From an uncultured Clostridia bacterium (GTDB taxonomy: Bacteria > Bacillota > Clostridia > Lutisporales > Lutisporaceae), in assembly GCA_937930535.1 (NCBI GenBank), contig CALGKJ010000040.1, forward strand, positions 1 to 41,587: a stretch of 41,587 nucleotides of DNA. Direction: 5' to 3'. Every line of letters starts with the position of its first letter. Position 1 is the stretch's first letter. Under the pieces are notes generated by a model. That model had not been told where the DNA came from. It was given only the letters and a program-made list of their open reading frames with translations, and did no database searches. Of this stretch, positions 6,610 to 30,070 are shown piece by piece. Position numbers and translations under genes: made by a program.

Positions 6610-6644
6610 TTGACATATGCAATTGTTGTATTATACAATTATTG
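6610..6644 (+). promoter_or_regulatory. Promoter and palindromic operator of the marR-hgcAB unit
   Basis: TTGACA at 6610-6615 is a consensus -35 box, with TATACA at 6632-6637 (16-base spacer) as the likely -10. An imperfect palindrome (CAATTGTTGTA/TACAATTATTG, 6620-6644) lies across the spacer and -10. A palindrome at this spot fits autorepression by the MarR protein encoded just downstream; that is inference. Confidence 0.65.
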
Positions 6645-6669
6645 TAGATATCAATCCAAGGAGGAAATT

Positions 6670-7146
6670 ATGGAGCTAAGTTTAATAAGGTCATTTCGGA
6701 AGGATTTAAGAAGGCTAGAGCGAGAGGTGGGGCGAAAGCTTAAGGATGACACCGAGTGTTGTGGTGTTACAGTGTCTCAGTGCCATGTTATTCTCGAGAT
6801 AGGCAATAAGGGGGAAATGTCAATTGTTGACCTTGCAGGTATTCTTAATGTAGATACCAGCACTCTCAGCCGCAATATTAATAATATGGTAAATCTGGAG
6901 CTTGTTAATAGGGTCACAAATCCTAATGACAGGCGTTATGTATTCGTAGCCCTTACAGCAAAGGGCAAACAGGTGTATGAATCAATCGAGGATATGTGTA
7001 ACCAGTATTATAATAGGGTATTCAGCCATATAGCACCCGAGCTTCATACTCAGGTCATTGAAGCTTTTAAGCTGATAGTCAGTGCAATACTGAAAGCTAA
7101 TCAGGATGAGGATTGTGGCTGCTGTGGTGCGTCAAGGGATACATAA
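6670..7146 (+). CDS. MarR-family transcriptional regulator with cysteine-rich tail
   Basis: The 158-residue protein has the MarR winged helix: VSQCHVILEIGNKGEMSIVDLAGILN, then a recognition helix VDTSTLSRNINNMVNLELVNR and a wing with DRRYVFVALTAKGK. The ATG at 6670 follows AAGGAGG; an earlier ATG at 6610 overlaps the promoter and is rejected. The C-terminus ends DEDCGCCGASRDT, and further cysteines lie before the helix-turn-helix (TECCGVTVSQC), so a thiol-based or metal signal is possible. The gene is 20 bases upstream of hgcA and probably co-transcribed with hgcAB. Known hgcAB loci sometimes carry ArsR-type regulators; a MarR member here is a variation. The ligand is unknown. Confidence 0.88.
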   Translation: MELSLIRSFRKDLRRLEREVGRKLKDDTECCGVTVSQCHVILEIGNKGEMSIVDLAGILNVDTSTLSRNINNMVNLELVNRVTNPNDRRYVFVALTAKGKQVYESIEDMCNQYYNRVFSHIAPELHTQVIEAFKLIVSAILKANQDEDCGCCGASRDT

Positions 7147-7166
7147 TAGTATAAGGAGGTGTCATT

Positions 7167-8288
7167 ATGTCCGAAATAAACAAACAGCACAACTGCTGAG
7201 ACCCATCGGCTTCAGTTGTGTACAACTGCAATAATGAGAAAAAAGATTATATAACCGGCTATATGGATACTCCCGCCGGAAAAATCCCCATTGTATCAAC
7301 TGTCCTGACAAGGGCGGATCACTGGGGGACTGTAAGGGTACGACTGGATATCAAAAGAAATATGTACCGAGTAACTCCGGGACTGTATGCTGTAGGCTCT
7401 CCAACTAAGGATTCTCCAGTGCTAGTTACAGCAAACTATAAGTTGAGCTTTGATATGCTTAGAAAAGAGCTTAAGAAAATAAATGCATGGATAATGGTAT
7501 TGGATACAAATGGCGTAAATGTGTGGTGTGCAGCAGGCAAGGGAACTTTTGGTACTATTGAGCTGTTGAAGCGGATATATCTCACAAAGCTGAAAAGTAT
7601 TGTTTCCCATAATACAATTATACTTCCCCAGCTTGGAGCTGTGGGCGTGTCTGCTTATGAGGTCAGTAAAAAGTCTGGCTTTAAGATAATATATGGTCCA
7701 GTACAGGCTAAGGATATACCAGAATTTATTTGTAATAACTTTAAAGCGACACAGGAAATGAGAAGAATAAGCTTTAACATTTTTGACAGGCTTGTATTAA
7801 CGCCATTGGAGATGGTTCATACCTGGAAGCTTTTAGGGATTATGTTTGTTTCACTGTTTTTATTTAATCTTGCTGGCGGTGAGTTCAGAGGCTTTATGAA
7901 TATACTGAATCAAAGTATTCATAATCTGTTGTTTTATATTGGTGTTGTTATAGCTGGCTGTGTTGTTACGCCGGCACTGCTGCCTTGGATTCCCTCACGT
8001 GCCTTTGCTGTTAAGGGGCTGCTGCTTGGTGTGCTTTGGTCAGGATTTATGCTTATGTATCCTCAGGGCTTTGGCTTTGCAGCTTACAGCTTACTATACA
8101 AGCTTGGTCACGCAATCATTGGAGCTGTTATTTCCTCTTATTTAGCTCTTAACTTTACTGGCTCTACTACCTATACATCCTTTTCGGGAGTACGCAAGGA
8201 AGTAAAGGCTGCGGCTGCACCTATGCTTGCTGCAATGATTGCCGCATTATTATTTATAGCTGTGAGCTTAGTACTATTGTTTGTGTGA
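7167..8288 (+). CDS. hgcA: HgcA, corrinoid protein for mercury methylation, with in-frame TGA at codon 11
   Basis: The protein contains the HgcA signature NVWCAAGK (residues 118-125, counting from the ATG at 7167), whose cysteine C121 is the lower axial ligand of the cobalt corrinoid. The corrinoid domain (about 28-190) is followed by five membrane helices (about 225-373), as in HgcA. HgcA passes a methyl group to Hg(II) with HgcB. The first codons are MSEINKQHNC, then TGA at 7197-7199, then DPSASVVYNC in the same frame. AAGGAGG sits seven bases before this ATG, whereas the first start after the TGA (GTG, 7218) has no ribosome site and lies within a hairpin. The TGA may encode selenocysteine next to a cysteine; otherwise it is a sequencing error or nonsense mutation, and a 356-residue HgcA could start at 7218. 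HgcA identity is firm; the TGA reading is not. Confidence 0.9.
7213..7228 (+). promoter_or_regulatory. Candidate bacterial SECIS hairpin after the hgcA TGA
   Basis: CAGTTG and CAACTG form a 6-bp stem with loop TGTA. The loop begins 19 bases after the in-frame TGA and has G as its second base. As I recall the bacterial SECIS consensus, a loop 16-37 bases after the UGA with G in one of its first two positions is expected, so the fit is good. A competing 8-bp pairing (CACAACTG at 7188 with CAGTTGTG at 7213) would enclose the TGA. The same repeats could instead be a regulator-binding site. Confidence 0.4.
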
Positions 8289-8298
8289 GGTGTATGAA

Positions 8299-8625
8299 AT
8301 GAAAAGCAATAAGCATCAATATCTAAAAAATATGACAACCTTAAAACTGGATTCAGATAAATGTACAGGCTGCGGCATATGTACTACTGTCTGTCCTCAT
8401 AATGTATTTGAGCTTTCAGCGGGTAAAGCTGGTATATTGGATAGAGATAGCTGCATGGAGTGCGGTGCCTGTGCGAAAAACTGCCCTTTTTTGGCGATTA
8501 CTGTGGATGCAGGAGTCGGCTGTGCCTTTGCCATTATAAATGGTATATTGTCAGGTGGTGCGCCTTCCTGTGATTGTGACGGAAGCAGTAAAAAGAAAAA
8601 GAAGAAGAATACTGGGTGCTGTTAA
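8299..8625 (+). CDS. hgcB: HgcB, ferredoxin-like partner of HgcA
   Basis: The 108-residue protein has two [4Fe-4S] motifs (CTGCGICTTVCP at 22-33 and CMECGACAKNCP at 52-63). It also has the HgcB-specific lone cysteine C75 in VGCAF and a terminal cysteine pair C107-C108 behind a lysine run. HgcB is thought to reduce the corrinoid of HgcA and to bind or deliver mercury through these cysteines. A further CDC (C91, C93) may add thiol sites. The ATG at 8299 follows GAGGTG and lies 11 bases after the hgcA stop; an upstream TTG at 8281 would overlap hgcA and lacks a ribosome site. Gene order hgcA-hgcB is the usual one. A hairpin terminator follows. Confidence 0.93.
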   Translation: MKSNKHQYLKNMTTLKLDSDKCTGCGICTTVCPHNVFELSAGKAGILDRDSCMECGACAKNCPFLAITVDAGVGCAFAIINGILSGGAPSCDCDGSSKKKKKKNTGCC

Positions 8626-8660
8626 CAAATTGTTTATATTGATAAACAAGCCCAAAGAAT

Positions 8661-8690
8661 AATCGACCGGCAATGCCGGTCGATTGATTA
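8661..8690. terminator. Terminator between hgcB and pepF
   Basis: A perfect 11-bp stem (AATCGACCGGC/GCCGGTCGATT, loop AAT) is followed by a weak T-rich tail on the plus strand and lies just past the pepF stop on the minus strand, so it probably serves both convergent genes. Confidence 0.75.
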
Positions 8691-10656: not shown

Positions 10657-11751
10657 TTATCTTTTTACAGCAATAAGCTTTTCCTTTAATTCCTTTTCTA
10701 TTGTAGCAAGCTCTACCTCTGCCTGCTGTCTCTTTGTTCTTCCCTCTTGCTGAATATTGATGGTTTCTTCTATTGTGTGTATAAGGTCTGCATTTACCTT
10801 CTTCAAGGTTTCAATATCTACTATGCCTCTTTCTGATTCCTTGGCGATGCTTATTGAGCTTTCCTTAAGCATTTCGGAATTTTTCATAAGCAGTGCGTTT
10901 GTAGTGTCGGTTACTTCCTTTTGTACTGCCAGAGCCTTCTTTTGTCTATATAGGCTTAAAGCAATAACTATCTGGTTTTTCCAGAGTGGTATTGTATTGA
11001 GTATTGAGCTTTGAACCTTTTCAACCAGTACCTGATTATTATTTTGTATCATTCTTATTTGCGGAGCAGTCTGGAGTGAAATCATTCTGCTCAGCTTAAG
11101 ATCATGTACCTTCTTTTCAAATCTGTTTGCAAGCTGTATTGTATCATTAAGTCGTTGTGCATCCATAGCATCATTTGTGGCATCTACTCTTGCCTGCATT
11201 TCTGGTATAACCTTTTCATTCAGCTCCTTAAGCTTTAATGTACCTGCTAATATATAGCAGTTAAGGTTTCCTAAATATTCAAGATTCTTTTCAAATAGAT
11301 AGTCCAGCAGGGTAATATCCTTTAAAAGCTCCATTTTGGATTTATCCAGTGCATCAATAATTTTCTCAATTTCCACGTTAAGCTTCTGATATTTTGCTGC
11401 AAATTTCTGAGTGCTGTTAACAAGAGAGCCGAACAAGGGTATACCTGACATAAAGCCCTTTTTGGGAGACAAGCCGTCTACGTCCAAATCCTTTACCTTA
11501 AACATCAAATCTGTAAGTATCTCACCTACGTATCCTCCGTCCTTTGCTTTTACCTCGTTCAAAACGTTGTCCGCAAAGCTTGCTATCTGAGATTGGGCAC
11601 CTACTCCGTATTGCAGAACCGATTGAGAGTCTTCAATGGTTATTTCGCTCATAATCTGCTGTACCTTTTGTCTCTGTTCTTCTGTAAGCTTTGTTATATC
11701 AACCTCTTCTTGTGGTTGTACTTCCATACTCTTATATTTTTGTAGTTCCAT
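10657..11751 (-). CDS. TelA/KlaA-like toxic anion resistance family protein
   Basis: The 364-residue protein has the mostly helical, coiled-coil-rich layout of the TelA family, including an N-terminal SVLQYGVGAQSQIASFADNVL, a central FMSGIPLFGSLVNSTQKFAAKYQ, and a long charged helical tail. Members were named for tellurite resistance, but many act in envelope stress responses and their biochemical role is not settled. The ATG at 11751 has AGGAGG upstream. No TerD-type partner or xpaC neighbour is present, so only the family name can be given with confidence. Confidence 0.85.
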   Translation of the reverse strand: MELQKYKSMEVQPQEEVDITKLTEEQRQKVQQIMSEITIEDSQSVLQYGVGAQSQIASFADNVLNEVKAKDGGYVGEILTDLMFKVKDLDVDGLSPKKGFMSGIPLFGSLVNSTQKFAAKYQKLNVEIEKIIDALDKSKMELLKDITLLDYLFEKNLEYLGNLNCYILAGTLKLKELNEKVIPEMQARVDATNDAMDAQRLNDTIQLANRFEKKVHDLKLSRMISLQTAPQIRMIQNNNQVLVEKVQSSILNTIPLWKNQIVIALSLYRQKKALAVQKEVTDTTNALLMKNSEMLKESSISIAKESERGIVDIETLKKVNADLIHTIEETINIQQEGRTKRQQAEVELATIEKELKEKLIAVKR

Positions 11752-17398: not shown

Positions 17399-17491
17399 AT
17401 GGCGGAGAAGGAGGGATTCGAACCCTCGCGCCAGTTTCCCAACCTACGCCCTTAGCAGGGGCGCCTCTTCGACCTACTTGAGTACTTCTCC
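17399..17491 (-). tRNA. tRNA-Ser (anticodon GCT)
   Basis: A 93-base class II tRNA with acceptor stem GGAGAAG/CTTCTCC, discriminator G and encoded CCA. The anticodon loop CTGCTAA sits on a CGCCC/GGGCG stem, a long variable arm is present, and the T-loop is TTCGAAT. The anticodon reads AGC/AGT codons. Confidence 0.96.
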
Positions 17492-17549
17492 TAGTATCTA
17501 CAATTTTTTTGTATTCATTTTGCATTGAATACTACTGTTTAAATTGTTA

Positions 17550-17639
17550 TGGAGGAGAGAGAGGGATTCGAACCCTCGGACGCCGCAAAACGCCTCTGGT
17601 TTTCAAGACCAGCTCCATAAACCGCTCGAACATCTCTCC
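17550..17639 (-). tRNA. tRNA-Ser (anticodon TGA)
   Basis: A 90-base class II tRNA with acceptor GGAGAGA/TCTCTCC, anticodon loop CTTGAAA on a CTGGT/ACCAG stem, long variable arm and encoded CCA. The base before CCA is T instead of the G usual in bacterial serine tRNAs. It is first in a two-tRNA transcript. Confidence 0.95.
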
Positions 17640-20978: not shown

Positions 20979-21197
20979 AAAAAACCTTTCATCCCCAATA
21001 AAGGGACGAAAGGTTATCCGTGTTGCCACCCTAGTTAGCAGCATATGAATATACTGCTCTCTCATTCGTTTAACGGCTGTGCCGGTACTGCTCGTCGCAG
21101 ACTGCTCCGGGATGGATATCACAAATCCTGTTATCGGCTCTCACCTGCCGCCGACTCTCTAAAAAAAGGATATTGAGACTTTCCCTTCAACGCATTT
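20979..21197 (-). promoter_or_regulatory. T-box riboswitch leader of serS
   Basis: On the minus strand the leader carries AGAGAG, the AGGTGAGA apical loop of stem I, and the T-box sequence AGGGTGGCAACACGG. The terminator is AACCTTTCGTCCC paired with GGGGATGAAAGGTT and followed by six T (20976-21015). Uncharged tRNA-Ser would bind and favour the antiterminator. The specifier may be TCC in the loop before ATCCC, but I cannot fix it by eye. Confidence 0.92.
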
Positions 21198-21402
21198 AAT
21201 AATTTTTATATATCAATAAAGTTATTTTTTATAATTTTACTATTTTTTATACAATATTTCAAGTACTGCTTTTATATTATTTCTAATATTTGCCGAATTT
21301 CTTGTTACTCAGCTACATTTATCTTTAAAATAATCTTTCACAAAGTGTGGCTAGGTATAAAAGCATGTCTATTTGTCAATAATCACAATAAAGACAAGCA
21401 AG

Positions 21403-24102: not shown

Positions 24103-24408
24103 ATGCGAATCGAAGAACATCCGATACTATCCTTCAAAAAAGGTCCTAAAGTAAAATTCACCTTTGATGGACAGCAGTATGAAGGATATGAGGGAGAACC
24201 AATTGCTGCTGCACTGCATGCAGCAGGAGTAAAAGTATTGGGACACAGCCATAACCTTGGAAGACCCAGAGGTTTTTATTGTGCCATTGGCAACTGCTCT
24301 TCCTGCCTCATGGTTGTAGATGGAAAACCCAATGTAAGAGTTTGTGTGGAAAAACTAACTGAGGGCATGATAGTAGAAACTCAAAAGGGGAAAGGTGATC
24401 TGGTATGA
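24103..24408 (+). CDS. [2Fe-2S] subunit, HcnA/SoxA-N-like
   Basis: The 101-residue protein matches the small 2Fe-2S subunit found in hydrogen cyanide synthase (HcnA), opine oxidases and the N-terminus of sarcosine oxidase alpha. Its four cysteines lie in CAIGNCSSC followed twelve residues later by another C (NVRVC), a plant-type ferredoxin pattern. It should carry electrons between the two flavoprotein subunits. The ATG follows GGGAGGG. It overlaps the next gene by four bases (ATGA), so translation is coupled. It is the first gene of a six-gene operon. Confidence 0.9.
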   Translation: MRIEEHPILSFKKGPKVKFTFDGQQYEGYEGEPIAAALHAAGVKVLGHSHNLGRPRGFYCAIGNCSSCLMVVDGKPNVRVCVEKLTEGMIVETQKGKGDLV

Positions 24409-25484
24409 TAAACACAGAGATACTTATAGTCGGAGGCGGTCCTGCCGGACTATGTGCTGCTATCGCAGCAGCCGAATCCGGTGCAAAGGTCACATTGGTA
24501 GAACGTAATGACAGCTTGGGCGGACAGTTGGAGAAGCAAACTCATATGTTTTTCGGTTCACAGAAGCAGTATGCTTCAATCAGGGGTATAGATATTGTCG
24601 GTATTTTGACAAAGGAATTAGATAAGTATAATGAAAATGTTACCATAATGTTAAATGCTACCGTTATTGGAATGTATGAGGACGGTATATTAACAATAGA
24701 ACAAAATGATAAGTATATGAAAGTAAAGCCACAGGCTATAATTGTGGCAACAGGTGCATCAGAAAAATTCTTAACCTTCCCCAACAACGATTTACCCGGT
24801 ATATATGGTGCAGGTGCAGTTCAGACACTTGCTAACGTACATGGCGTACTGCCAGGCAAAAGCATAGTAATGGTAGGTGCAGGAAACATAGGTCTTATCG
24901 TCAGCTATCAGCTTATGCAGGCAGGTATAAAGGTAAAAGCCATAATAGATGCCGCTCCCAAAATCGGAGGCTATCTGGTACACGCATCAAAAATAAGAAG
25001 AATGGGCGTACCCATAATGACTGGGTATACTGTCAAATACGCTCATGGCAAGGATGCACTGGAAAAGGTCACTCTCTGGAAGCTTGACGATAAATGGCAG
25101 CCAATACCCGGCTCAGAAATAGACATAGATACAGATGTATTATGCATATCTGTTGGTCTTTCACCACTGGCAGAGCTTTTGTGGCAGGTGGGCTGTGAAA
25201 TGAAATTCGTGCCTGAGCTTGGAGGTCATGTGCCTACTCGTAATGAGGATTTGGAAACAAGCATTCCTAATGTATTTGTTGCAGGAGATGTTGGCGGAGT
25301 AGAGGAAGCAAGCAGTGCCATGGTAGAAGGAAGGCTGGCAGGACTATGTGCTGCCAAAAAGCTGGGGCATGTACTTCCTGACTACAAAGAGCAAAGAGAG
25401 GACTGCCTAGGTCAGCTTAATGACTTAAGATCAGGTCCAGTGGGGGAAAAGATTAGAAAAGGCTTAGAGCAGTTAATAAGTTAA
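24405..25484 (+). CDS. FAD/NAD(P)-binding oxidoreductase subunit, HcnB-like
   Basis: The 359-residue protein has two dinucleotide-binding folds: FAD at the N-terminus (ILIVGGGPAGLCAAIAAAES) and a second at about 150 (VMVGAGNIGLIVSYQL). The FAD-closing motif NVFVAGDVGG is near 300. This is the pyridine-nucleotide-disulfide reductase-like part of HcnB or opine oxidase subunit A. In those proteins a C-terminal BFD-type 2Fe-2S domain follows; here that domain is on the separate next gene. It should pass electrons from the substrate flavoprotein to NAD(P) or another acceptor. Confidence 0.9.
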   Translation: MINTEILIVGGGPAGLCAAIAAAESGAKVTLVERNDSLGGQLEKQTHMFFGSQKQYASIRGIDIVGILTKELDKYNENVTIMLNATVIGMYEDGILTIEQNDKYMKVKPQAIIVATGASEKFLTFPNNDLPGIYGAGAVQTLANVHGVLPGKSIVMVGAGNIGLIVSYQLMQAGIKVKAIIDAAPKIGGYLVHASKIRRMGVPIMTGYTVKYAHGKDALEKVTLWKLDDKWQPIPGSEIDIDTDVLCISVGLSPLAELLWQVGCEMKFVPELGGHVPTRNEDLETSIPNVFVAGDVGGVEEASSAMVEGRLAGLCAAKKLGHVLPDYKEQREDCLGQLNDLRSGPVGEKIRKGLEQLIS

Positions 25485-25500
25485 GGGGGTTAAGAAAACA

Positions 25501-26277
25501 ATGTTAGAAAAAACAGGAGTAGCTACCCAAGAGGATTTAGCACTCGTTATGCCCTCAAAGGAAAGACTAGCAAAGGGAGCTGTTGCAGTTATAGAATGCT
25601 TTCAGAGGATACCCTGCAACCCATGCTACACTTCCTGCAAAAGAGGTGCCATAATAGAGTTTAAGGATATAAATGACAGACCCATAATAAATGCAGACAA
25701 ATGCAACGGCTGCGGAATCTGCGTAAGCAACTGCCCGGGGCTTGCAATAGTTGTAGTAGACGAAACCTATTCAGATACAGAAGCACTGGTTAAGATACCC
25801 TATGAATTTTTACCGCTGCCACAGGAAGGCGGCTATGTAACTGGTCTTGACAGAGAAGGAAAGCCCGTCTGTAGAGCAAAGGTAGTAAAGGTTCTTAATA
25901 CCAAAGCTCAGGATAGAACGCCAGTAGTATCCTTGGCAGTTCCAAAGGAGCTTTCAATGGTAGTAAGATGCATGAGTCTTGATGATTTTTACAGCGATAA
26001 TACCATGGTATGCCGCTGCGAAGAGGTTACACTAGGAGAAGTAAGAGAGCTTATCAGAAAAGGCTATCATACAATAGATGAAATAAAGAGAATAAGCAGA
26101 GCAGGTATGGGACCATGTCAGGGCAGAACCTGCCGTCAGCTTATTATGCAGGAGCTTGCTCGTGCTACAAATCAAAAAATGAGCGAAATGCCAATGTCCA
26201 CCTTCAGACCCCCTGCAAAACCCATTAAATTAGGTGCTGTTATCAGCAGTCTAGGTGGGGGTGAATGCAATGAATAA
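25501..26277 (+). CDS. Iron-sulfur protein with 4Fe-4S and BFD-like 2Fe-2S domains
   Basis: The 258-residue protein has CNPCYTSC near residue 40 and a [4Fe-4S] motif CNGCGICVSNCP near residue 75. The C-terminal BFD-like domain reads MVCRCEEVTLGEV, then AGMGPCQGRTC, four cysteines for a 2Fe-2S cluster. The BFD part equals the C-terminus of HcnB/OoxA, so the classical subunit is split here and has gained a ferredoxin-type domain that could connect it to ferredoxin. The ATG at 25501 follows GGGGG and starts 16 bases after the previous stop. Confidence 0.9.
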   Translation: MLEKTGVATQEDLALVMPSKERLAKGAVAVIECFQRIPCNPCYTSCKRGAIIEFKDINDRPIINADKCNGCGICVSNCPGLAIVVVDETYSDTEALVKIPYEFLPLPQEGGYVTGLDREGKPVCRAKVVKVLNTKAQDRTPVVSLAVPKELSMVVRCMSLDDFYSDNTMVCRCEEVTLGEVRELIRKGYHTIDEIKRISRAGMGPCQGRTCRQLIMQELARATNQKMSEMPMSTFRPPAKPIKLGAVISSLGGGECNE

Positions 26278-27418
26278 AACTGCAAGTGTGGTTATTATCG
26301 GCGGAGGAATATCCGGCTGCTCTATAGCCTACAGTCTGGCGAAAAAAGGCGTTAAGGATATAGTAGTTGTAGAAAAGGATTATCCATCCAGCGGAGCTAC
26401 AGGAAGATGCGGTGCTGGTGTAAGAATGCAATGGGGCACAGAAATGAATTGCCGCCTTGCAAAATATAGTATAGAGTTTTTCGAAAGAGCCAATGAAGAG
26501 CTTGAGTATGATGGAGATATAGAGTTTAAGCAAAAAGGTTATCTTATAGTAGCTTCCACAGAAAGAGAAGCAGAGCAGTTTAAAAAGAATGTAGCTTTGC
26601 AAAACAGCTTGGGAATCCCTACAAAATTCCTTACTCCAAAGGAAGCCAAGGAAATAATACCTCATATGGATGAATCAAAAATAGTATGTGCTACATTCTG
26701 TCAAAAGGATGGTCACTTAAATCCCTTCCTGACTACAGATGCATATGCTAAAGCAGCTATGAGACTTGGTGTAGAAATAATGAAATATACTCAGGTTACG
26801 GGCATAGAGGTTGAAAACGGCAAAATAAAGGGAGTCCAAACAGATAAGGGATATATTTCTACCCCTGTTGTGGTAAATGCAGCAGGCGGACATTCAAAGA
26901 TAATAGGTGAAATGGCAGGTGTTAATATACCTGTATATGCTGAAAGGCATCAGATATTGGTAACAGAGCCTGTAAATCCAATGCAGGATCCTATGTATAT
27001 GTCCTTCTCCCATAATATTTACTGTCAGCAGACACCTCACGGAAGCTTTATTATGGGCAGAGGTGATGCTAATGAGCCAAGAGACTTGAGACAAACATCA
27101 AGCTGGCATTTCCTTGAGGAAATGGCAAAAACCTGCTGTACTCTACTTCCTCCATTAAAGGATTTAAGAGTTGTAAGACAGTGGGCTGGACTATACTGTA
27201 TGTCACCTGACCGTCAGCCAATATATGGTTCTGTTTCAGCGGTAGAAGGCTTCTATCTGGCATGCGGCTACAGCGGTCATGGATTTATGTTCGGGCCTGT
27301 AACCGGAACTATTATATCGGAAGCTATATTGGGAGAAAAGCCTACTATAGACGTAAGCATACTAAGCAATGATAGGTTTGACAAGGGCGAATTGGTATTC
27401 GAGCCTTCAGTAGTATAG
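26270..27418 (+). CDS. FAD-dependent amine/amino-acid dehydrogenase, HcnC/DadA-like
   Basis: The 382-residue DAO-family flavoprotein starts with SVVIIGGGISGCSIAYSLAK, then SSGATGRCGAGVRMQWG where FAD may be held. It ends with the family motif YLACGYSGHGFMFGPVTG. Relatives oxidise glycine (HcnC), D-amino acids (DadA), sarcosine or opines (OoxB, NoxB). As the substrate-binding subunit it defines the pathway, but the substrate cannot be read from sequence. The ATG at 26270 overlaps the preceding gene by eight bases and has GGTGGGGGTG upstream. Confidence 0.9.
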   Translation: MNKTASVVIIGGGISGCSIAYSLAKKGVKDIVVVEKDYPSSGATGRCGAGVRMQWGTEMNCRLAKYSIEFFERANEELEYDGDIEFKQKGYLIVASTEREAEQFKKNVALQNSLGIPTKFLTPKEAKEIIPHMDESKIVCATFCQKDGHLNPFLTTDAYAKAAMRLGVEIMKYTQVTGIEVENGKIKGVQTDKGYISTPVVVNAAGGHSKIIGEMAGVNIPVYAERHQILVTEPVNPMQDPMYMSFSHNIYCQQTPHGSFIMGRGDANEPRDLRQTSSWHFLEEMAKTCCTLLPPLKDLRVVRQWAGLYCMSPDRQPIYGSVSAVEGFYLACGYSGHGFMFGPVTGTIISEAILGEKPTIDVSILSNDRFDKGELVFEPSVV

Positions 27419-27505
27419 ATTAAAGTTTGTATATAGCCTTGGACTGTAGAAAGAAAATATGTGCTTTTTAAACTCCAAGGCATTCTAATTTTGGGAGGTA
27501 AAAAA

Positions 27506-27886
27506 ATGAAGGTATTAGGTAAAAAGCCGGAGCTTTGCATCGCATGTCATTCATGTGAAACTACCTGCTCCAGAACATGGTTTAAAGAAGCAAACTATGC
27601 TAAATCATGTATCAGCATCAGTAAAGATACAGAAAAGAAGATTACTAGCTGTACACAATGCGGCGAATGTATTGCTGTCTGTCCTGTGGAAGCCTTAACA
27701 AGAGACAAAAATGGCGTAATAAGAGTAAATAAGAAGATATGCGTAGGCTGTTTTATGTGTGTAGGCTTCTGCCCTGAGCTGGCAATGGGTGTACATGACG
27801 ATTACATTGAACCTTTCAAATGTGTAGCCTGCGGACAATGTGCGAAAAGTTGTCCTAGAGAAGCTATTTTTATTGAAGAAATATAA
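27506..27886 (+). CDS. Polyferredoxin subunit linked to aldehyde:ferredoxin oxidoreductase
   Basis: The 126-residue protein has four cysteine clusters: CIACHSCETTC, CTQCGECIAVCP, CVGCFMCVGFCP and CVACGQCAKSCP, enough for up to four [4Fe-4S] centres. Proteins of this form sit beside AOR genes and pass electrons from the tungsten enzyme. The ATG at 27506 has TTGGGAGGTAAAAAA upstream; an earlier in-frame start at 27461 has no ribosome site. An 87-base gap separates it from the flavoprotein gene. Confidence 0.9.
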   Translation: MKVLGKKPELCIACHSCETTCSRTWFKEANYAKSCISISKDTEKKITSCTQCGECIAVCPVEALTRDKNGVIRVNKKICVGCFMCVGFCPELAMGVHDDYIEPFKCVACGQCAKSCPREAIFIEEI

Positions 27887-27916
27887 AACAAAACATAATC
27901 ATTGGGAGGTAAAGTA

Positions 27917-30070
27917 ATGAATATAGAAAAGCTGCAATCTGCCCATAAGCTGCTTAATGAATACAAATATGAGTTGGGTAAGCTTGAAAGAGGATATACA
28001 AATAGAACTCTATACATTAACCTAAGTGATAACACAATTAAAGAAAAGCCTGTTACTCAAATGATGAAGGACAAATTTATAGGCGGCAAGGGCTTTGGTC
28101 TATGGTATCTGTGGAATGCAGTAACACCTGAAACAAAGTGGAATGATCCTGAAAATGAAATAGTAATATCAAGCGGTCCCATAGGCGGCATAACTCAATA
28201 CCCAGGTGCAGGTAAATCCTTGGTAGTAAGCTTGTCACCGCTAACTGGAATGCCAATAGACAGCAACGTGGGCGGTTATTTCGGTCCACTGCTTAAGTTC
28301 TCCGGCTTTGATGCTCTTGAGCTTCAAGGAAAAGCAGAAAAAGACGTAATAATATTTATAGATGGTAATGACGGAACAATAACCATAGAAGAAGCTCCAG
28401 AGGAAGCAATAGACAGCCATATCCTTGGTGAACAGCTTACAGAAATGTATGCAAAATCAGAGGAAGACAAGAGAAATGTAGCTGTTATATCAGCAGGTAC
28501 TGCTGCACAAAATACCTTTATCGGACTATTAAACTTTACCTTCTACGATGTAAGAAGAAAGGCAATAAGACTTAAACAAGCTGGTCGCGGCGGCATAGGC
28601 AGAGTATTCAGAGACAAAGGCATCAAGGCTGTTGTAATCAGATTTGAAGGCGTTAAAGGAAACCTAAATAATCCTGCCGATCAAGGCAAGCTTAACAGAA
28701 CAGGAATAAAGCTTCATAAGGAAATACATGACTTTGACGATAAGCAGTGCAGAATGAGACAAATAGGTACTGCAAACATAATCGAAATAATGGATCAGTA
28801 TGATCTGCTACCAGTACACAACTACAAGTATGGTGCTCATAAGGATACTTACAAAATAGCATCAAATGTATTCAGAGATAAAATAACACAAGGCATGGCA
28901 GACGGCTGCTGGTACGGTTGCAGCTTGTCCTGTGCAAAGGCAGTAGACAACTTTGAAGTAAAAACTGGTCCATATAAAGGACAAAAGGTTATAGTTGACG
29001 GACCTGAGTACGAAAATGCAGCAGCCTTAGGCTCAAACGTTGGAATATTCGATCCCGACGTAGTACTTGAGCTTAACTTCTATTGTGATACCTATGCTAT
29101 AGACACTATTTCTTTTGGTACTCTTACAGCCTTTGTTATGGAATGCTATGAAAACGGCATATTAAATAAAGAAAGAACAGGCGGACTTGAGCTTAACTTC
29201 GGCAATGCTGATGCAACACTAGAGCTTATACATCAAATGTCCAGAGGCGAAGGCTTCGGAAAGATAGCTGGTCTTGGAATCAGAAAGATGAAGGAAATAT
29301 TTGCAAAAGAGTACGGCGCAGATCCAAACTTCCTGCAAGATATCGGTATGGAGCAAAAAGGCTTGGAGTTCTCCGAGTACCTTCCAAAGGAATCCCTTGC
29401 ACAGCAGGGCGGCTATGGTCTGACCAACAAAGGACCACAGCATGATGAAGCATGGCTGATATTTATGGATATGGTTAACAACCAGATACCAACCTTTGAG
29501 GATAAAGCAGAAGCACTGCACTACTTCCCAATGTTCAGAACCTGGTTCGGCTTAAACGGTCTCTGCAAGCTGCCTTGGAATGATATAATACCGGAAAGCA
29601 ACAAGACTGCCGACGAGCCGGCAAAGATACCTGAGCATGTACAAAACTATGTAGATATATTCAATGGAGTTACAGGAAAGAACATAGACAAGGAAGAGCT
29701 TATAGTACAATCCGAAAGAGTATACAACTTCCAAAGAATATTTAATATTAGAATGGGCTACGGAAAAAGAATCCACGACAAAATCCCATATCGTGCAGCA
29801 GGCCCTGTAACAGTTGAGGAATATGAATCAAGACAGGAAAGATATGACAACCAGTTAAAGGATATTATAGGCGTTGACCCAACAGGCAAATCAACAGAAG
29901 AAAAAATAAAAATAATGAGAGCTTACAGAGAAGATCAATACGAACAACTAACAGATGCAGTATACAAGAGAAGAGGCTGGACAATGGACGGAGTACCGAC
30001 AGTTGAGCACCTTCAAAAAATAGGTATGGATCTTCCTGAGGTTGTTGAGGTTGTAAAGCAGCATTTGTAG
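27917..30070 (+). CDS. Tungsten-dependent aldehyde:ferredoxin oxidoreductase
   Basis: The 717-residue protein has the AOR-family N-terminus (FIGGKGFGLWYLW, SGPIGG), the pterin-binding-region motif GRGGIGRVFRDKGIKAVVI, and cysteines for the [4Fe-4S] cluster in CWYGCSLSC with a late one in GLNGLCKLPW. It is about 100 residues longer than classical archaeal AOR. AORs oxidise aldehydes to acids and reduce ferredoxin using tungsten bispyranopterin. The ATG at 27917 follows TTGGGAGGTAAAGTA. It ends the operon and is followed by a strong terminator. A decayed second copy of its 3' part lies at 32408-32824. Confidence 0.93.
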   Translation: MNIEKLQSAHKLLNEYKYELGKLERGYTNRTLYINLSDNTIKEKPVTQMMKDKFIGGKGFGLWYLWNAVTPETKWNDPENEIVISSGPIGGITQYPGAGKSLVVSLSPLTGMPIDSNVGGYFGPLLKFSGFDALELQGKAEKDVIIFIDGNDGTITIEEAPEEAIDSHILGEQLTEMYAKSEEDKRNVAVISAGTAAQNTFIGLLNFTFYDVRRKAIRLKQAGRGGIGRVFRDKGIKAVVIRFEGVKGNLNNPADQGKLNRTGIKLHKEIHDFDDKQCRMRQIGTANIIEIMDQYDLLPVHNYKYGAHKDTYKIASNVFRDKITQGMADGCWYGCSLSCAKAVDNFEVKTGPYKGQKVIVDGPEYENAAALGSNVGIFDPDVVLELNFYCDTYAIDTISFGTLTAFVMECYENGILNKERTGGLELNFGNADATLELIHQMSRGEGFGKIAGLGIRKMKEIFAKEYGADPNFLQDIGMEQKGLEFSEYLPKESLAQQGGYGLTNKGPQHDEAWLIFMDMVNNQIPTFEDKAEALHYFPMFRTWFGLNGLCKLPWNDIIPESNKTADEPAKIPEHVQNYVDIFNGVTGKNIDKEELIVQSERVYNFQRIFNIRMGYGKRIHDKIPYRAAGPVTVEEYESRQERYDNQLKDIIGVDPTGKSTEEKIKIMRAYREDQYEQLTDAVYKRRGWTMDGVPTVEHLQKIGMDLPEVVEVVKQHL

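Follow-up and report, generated by a model that had tools for sequence, protein, structure and literature searches.

A marR-hgcA-hgcB locus with a probable selenocysteine codon and a candidate operator common to arsenic genes in an uncultured clostridial genome

An intact hgcA and hgcB lie behind a MarR-family gene in the order marR-hgcA-hgcB in the window analysed here (the whole stretch of DNA, 41,587 nucleotides), and the three genes probably form an operon for corrinoid-dependent mercury methylation; this best explanation as a whole includes selenocysteine in HgcA and control by the MarR protein. Protein families, clade, fold, the selenocysteine signature, the neighbourhood of MarR homologs with arsM or arsN1 and a common palindrome were established by computation. 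The features of the locus are:

6610-6639, + strand: promoter-like TTGACA-18-TACAAT (11 of 12 consensus matches; such matches are no commoner than chance in the region)
6620-6644, no strand assigned: candidate operator CAATTGTTGTATTATACAATTATTG, its core TTGTATTATACAA at 6626-6638 over the -10 hexamer
6670-7146, + strand: MarR-family regulator with CCGx5C and a Cys-rich C-terminus (CGCC), AAGGAGG upstream (Pfam MarR PF01047, E 7.9e-12)
7167-8288, + strand: hgcA, corrinoid mercury-methylation protein with predicted Sec11, 373 aa with the TGA read through
7197-7199, + strand: in-frame TGA, codon 11 of hgcA, probable selenocysteine codon of an N-terminal Cys-Sec pair
7213-7228, + strand: bSECIS-like hairpin CAGTTG-TGTA-CAACTG, stem of 6, loop 22 nt after the U of UGA
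7518-7541, + strand: cap-helix motif NVWCAAGK with the cobalt-ligand Cys121, fitting N(V/I)WCA(A/G)GK
7800-8282, + strand: five transmembrane helices of HgcA (AlphaFold2 model)
8299-8625, + strand: hgcB, dicluster ferredoxin with GVGC and terminal Cys-Cys, 108 aa, ATG start, directly after hgcA
8660-8686, both strands: bidirectional terminator-like stem of 12 bp, common to the end of hgcB and a converging peptidase gene

Identity of HgcA and HgcB

Both proteins score well above the curated cut-offs of their NCBIfam families: 420.8 bits for HgcA against HgcA_corrinoid NF040863 (cut-off 275, E 3.4e-126) and 124.2 bits for HgcB against HgcB_ferredoxin NF040864 (cut-off 99). The window protein stays under the curated cut-off of the HgcAB-like fusion family NF043039 (192.5 bits, cut-off 285), and in the NCBIfam search also under that of the CFeSP gamma family. 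A single copy of HgcA is present in the host genome. A scan of the genome collection with the window HgcA as sole query found no relatives; a search with an alignment of four returned 572, of which the best 80 were kept. In a corrinoid-domain tree that had an outgroup of 18 CFeSP gamma sequences, all 42 HgcA including the window's fall on one side with a support of 100/100. The CFeSP gamma subunit (CdhD family) shares the corrinoid-binding fold but forms this separate clade (100/100) and lacks the cap-helix motif and the transmembrane domain of HgcA.

The AlphaFold2 model of HgcA (mean pLDDT 87.9, pTM 0.81) comprises a corrinoid-type domain followed by five long helices at residues 212-236, 243-270, 280-297, 309-328 and 339-372. 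Its best match in the library of solved structures is 9a0b (E 1.4e-17), which is a published, computed model of HgcA and not an experimental structure; CFeSP large subunits follow. The motif NVWCAAGK is invariant across an alignment of 32 sequences except for A122, itself nearly invariant. In the product of hgcB both CxxCxxCxxxCP motifs, the lone cysteine (GVGC) and the terminal Cys-Cys are all present. The terminator-like stem downstream is found on both strands and is therefore apparently shared with the converging peptidase gene.

These results support the original prediction in its interpretation of the locus: the completeness of hgcAB, the NVWCAAGK motif and five membrane helices of HgcA, the two 4Fe-4S motifs, lone cysteine and terminal Cys-Cys of HgcB and the common terminator were all found as described, and the tree proposed there as a check puts the protein inside the HgcA clade, so that refutation by a placement outside it fails. 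The rarity it had claimed among anaerobes is seen here too, since the HgcA cut-off is passed by only 13 of 391 Clostridia genomes, and in a sample of the phylum by 30 of 398. The designation of the host as a clostridium holds at the level of the class and fails below it, the window's order consisting here of 22 genomes, all of one family. The MarR-family gene at 6670-7146 lies within the stretch to which the prediction referred and is absent from its description.

The window also contains a gene for a toxic-anion resistance protein of the TelA family, two genes away from hgcAB (10657-11751, - strand), a run of FAD/NAD oxidoreductase genes with a BFD-like [2Fe-2S] protein and an aldehyde ferredoxin oxidoreductase (24405-30070, + strand), and a T-box leader before a seryl-tRNA synthetase gene (20999-21199, - strand) with two tRNA-Ser genes near (17400-17639).

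The MarR regulator and its candidate operator

Of 117 hgcA loci, 25 have a MarR homolog upstream; they come from Bacillota, Thermodesulfobacteriota, KSB1, Aminicenantes and others. As the loci were sampled by similarity and kinship, this fraction is not a population share. The homolog is usually the immediate neighbour of hgcA; in L081 (L190) an ArsR-type ORF lies in between. All 25 hgcA-linked homologs possess the cysteine at residue 50 of the 178-aa MarR ORF (residue 30 counted from the ATG at 6670), and about 20 of the 25 the C-terminal Cys pair.

In genomes of the same family, MarR homologs are also found away from hgcA, where they adjoin genes for an arsenite methyltransferase (L168, L170) or the arsinothricin acetyltransferase ArsN1 (L171, L172). 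Homologs with CCGx5C in other Clostridia have ArsM as neighbour in six loci (L180, L182, L183, L185, L200, L201), HgcA in one (L190) and other genes in three (L189, L191, L192). In another same-family genome (L175, 1501-2058, - strand), a 370-aa ORF is preceded by a MarR homolog that has a Cys pair at each end. A MarR protein specific to hgcA was considered and rejected, since homologs in the family adjoin arsM or arsN1 at places remote from hgcA. The host genome itself yielded no ArsM above the cut-off, so the arsenic link rests on relatives. From its cysteines and the neighbouring genes alone, the ligand sensed by the regulator may be a thiophilic metal(loid).

A search for inverted repeats upstream of MarR homologs yielded the core TTGYA-N3-TRCAA, exact copies of which precede 30 of 55 MarR homologs, the background rate being 0.009 per 150 bp in the loci examined. 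Among hgcA loci it is present in 15 of 24 with a linked MarR gene versus none of 92 without (Fisher 5e-13); part of these data had served to derive the motif, and the counts therefore include loci that suggested it. The site is found upstream of both sorts of operon, the hgcA type and the arsM/arsN1 type, and many loci have a pair of sites with a spacing of 16 bp. Two further exact matches occur elsewhere in the window, and the match is absent in the CCGx5C MarR relatives L069, L080, L081, L140, L189, L191 and L192.

Our data lean, by a narrow measure, towards a single type of thiol-sensing MarR that acts through TTGYA-N3-TRCAA and, across several phyla, regulates hgcAB in some anaerobes and genes of arsenic methylation or resistance in others; expression of hgcAB would thus form part of a stress response of the arsenic type, in addition to the ArsR case known from ND132. 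The MarR protein would act as an autorepressor on the site over the -10 hexamer, and would come off the DNA once its cysteines encounter a thiophilic metal(loid), e.g. As(III) or Hg(II).

MarR operators of like general shape are known in other bacteria, and the palindrome could accordingly be a generic MarR site with no link to arsenic or mercury, the MarR gene being an unrelated neighbour of hgcA. We regard this as unlikely: the site occurs in most MarR-linked hgcA loci and in no unlinked one, and many CCGx5C homologs of related Clostridia lie beside arsM or arsN1. A MarR gene upstream of hgcA had been noted in two strains only (PMC10349881), which fits an unrelated neighbour, but its recurrence in the 25 loci from several phyla speaks against one. 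In ND132, control of hgcAB by ArsR is known (Gionfriddo 2023, as cited in PMC10349881): as far as that citation conveys, ND132 and the window both have a probably arsenic-type regulator upstream of hgcAB, but the window's belongs to the MarR family and its candidate operator differs. No report of the common operator or of the link to arsM/arsN1 was found in the literature searched, subscription papers being mostly outside its reach.

Function of HgcAB

The window proteins resemble HgcAB of Pseudodesulfovibrio mercurii ND132 in the corrinoid domain with its cap-helix Cys, the five transmembrane helices and the dicluster HgcB with lone Cys and terminal Cys-Cys; they differ in a predicted selenocysteine within an N-terminal Cys-Sec pair, and in that MarR, not ArsR, lies upstream. 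The cap-helix Cys of HgcA and the lone and terminal cysteines of HgcB were named as crucial for methylation in ND132, and SAM was reported as methyl donor of the ND132 complex (PMC11588087).

By analogy with the current model of HgcAB elsewhere, HgcA would hold the corrinoid via Cys121, with its five membrane helices as anchor; HgcB would reduce the corrinoid and present Hg(II) on its terminal Cys-Cys, and the methyl group would pass from cobalt to mercury. The flexible N-terminal Cys-Sec pair (residues 1-18 and 20-23 lie under pLDDT 50 in the AlphaFold2 model) may serve as a soft-metal ligand that binds or relays Hg(II).

What role hgcAB serves natively is under debate (PMC10349881), and the group to which the regulator belongs is found beside arsenic-methylation genes, so that HgcAB might act on another metal or metalloid, or have a house-keeping role, with mercury methylation incidental or absent. 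This is rather improbable given that all cysteines of HgcA and HgcB crucial in ND132 are present in the window proteins. That the host would methylate mercury is a sound prediction from its gene content.

An in-frame TGA as probable selenocysteine codon

Codon 11 of hgcA very probably specifies selenocysteine and not termination. The Cys-TGA occurs at the identical place in three other genera of the family (INCU, QNCU and KSCU, compared with HNCU in the window), and the TGA is conserved opposite a Cys in homologs (CU vs CC). Altogether 18 of the 117 HgcA loci examined, from Bacillota and deltaproteobacterial groups, have Cys-TGA, the remaining HgcA having Cys-Cys or neither, and this state requires four changes on the HgcA core tree. 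A Shine-Dalgarno sequence (AAGGAGG) precedes the ATG at 7167; with no readthrough of the TGA the longest ORF of hgcA starts at GTG 7218 and comprises 356 aa, and no Shine-Dalgarno was seen upstream of that start.

The host genome possesses selA, selB and tRNA-Sec(TCA). Of the genomes in which HgcA or HgcB has a Sec-type codon, 11 of 11 carry selA versus 17 of 28 others (P 0.013), the 11 including G671 (L079), in which the sequence is Cys-Asp-TGA and not Cys-TGA. HgcB carries GVGU in 7 of the 117 loci.

The window hairpin has a stem of 6 bp only and an unremarkable folding energy (z -0.53, or -2.10 on a slightly different stretch); as folding energy alone did not single it out, geometry was compared with Cys-Cys controls. 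A hairpin with a stem of at least 6 pairs and a loop starting 20-25 nt after the U of UGA follows the TGA in 15 of 18 Cys-TGA loci versus 1 of 66 controls, a comparison in which the thresholds were chosen after the folds were seen and related rows are non-independent. In six loci of equal geometry, both partners vary in 4 of the 6 pairs, and every cell is paired; these loci were chosen by geometry, so that only the double changes count as support. The UGA would be decoded as selenocysteine by SelB on the hairpin just downstream.

That the TGA is a true stop, and that a shorter HgcA from GTG 7218 or later works without the N-terminal pair, we consider very improbable: the conserved HgcA domain does begin at residue 23 of the GTG ORF, and many HgcA, e.g. 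in Desulfosporosinus, have neither CC nor CU at the N-terminus, so that the pair is dispensable in the family, but the good Shine-Dalgarno stands before ATG 7167, Cys-TGA is conserved in four genera of the family and the hairpin follows most Cys-TGA and hardly any Cys-Cys. The truncated HgcA that the original prediction had allowed for, should the TGA be a true stop, fails as a refutation, the codon behaving as one for selenocysteine in its recurrence, hairpin, covariation and association with selA.

HgcA with "CU" and HgcB with "GVGU" are listed as predicted selenoproteins (PMC13188914, citing Haft and Gwadz 2023). As far as this listing goes, the window HgcA, with its Cys-TGA, shows no essential difference from the predicted selenoprotein HgcA of Haft and Gwadz 2023 (NF040863, motif CU), and the window HgcB keeps Cys (GVGC) where some relatives have GVGU. 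The terminal Cys-Cys of HgcB, essential in ND132, is lacking in L083 (and L034), in which an HgcB with GVGU ends in GRGKKA beside a Cys-Sec HgcA, and in the same-family genome L084, in which HgcB ends in APTCD and HgcA likewise has Cys-Sec.

Implications

Selenoprotein HgcA had been predicted earlier by others, and the gene pair itself is therefore of an already described kind; its regulation is the part for which no description was found in the literature searched. For annotation, our results are a warning that HgcA loses its selenocysteine end wherever the TGA is read as a stop. The formation of methylmercury depends on when hgcAB is expressed, and few organisms are known in which its control has been worked out. 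With a regulator and a candidate operator common with arsenic genes, what triggers hgcAB in many anaerobes could be put to a direct test.
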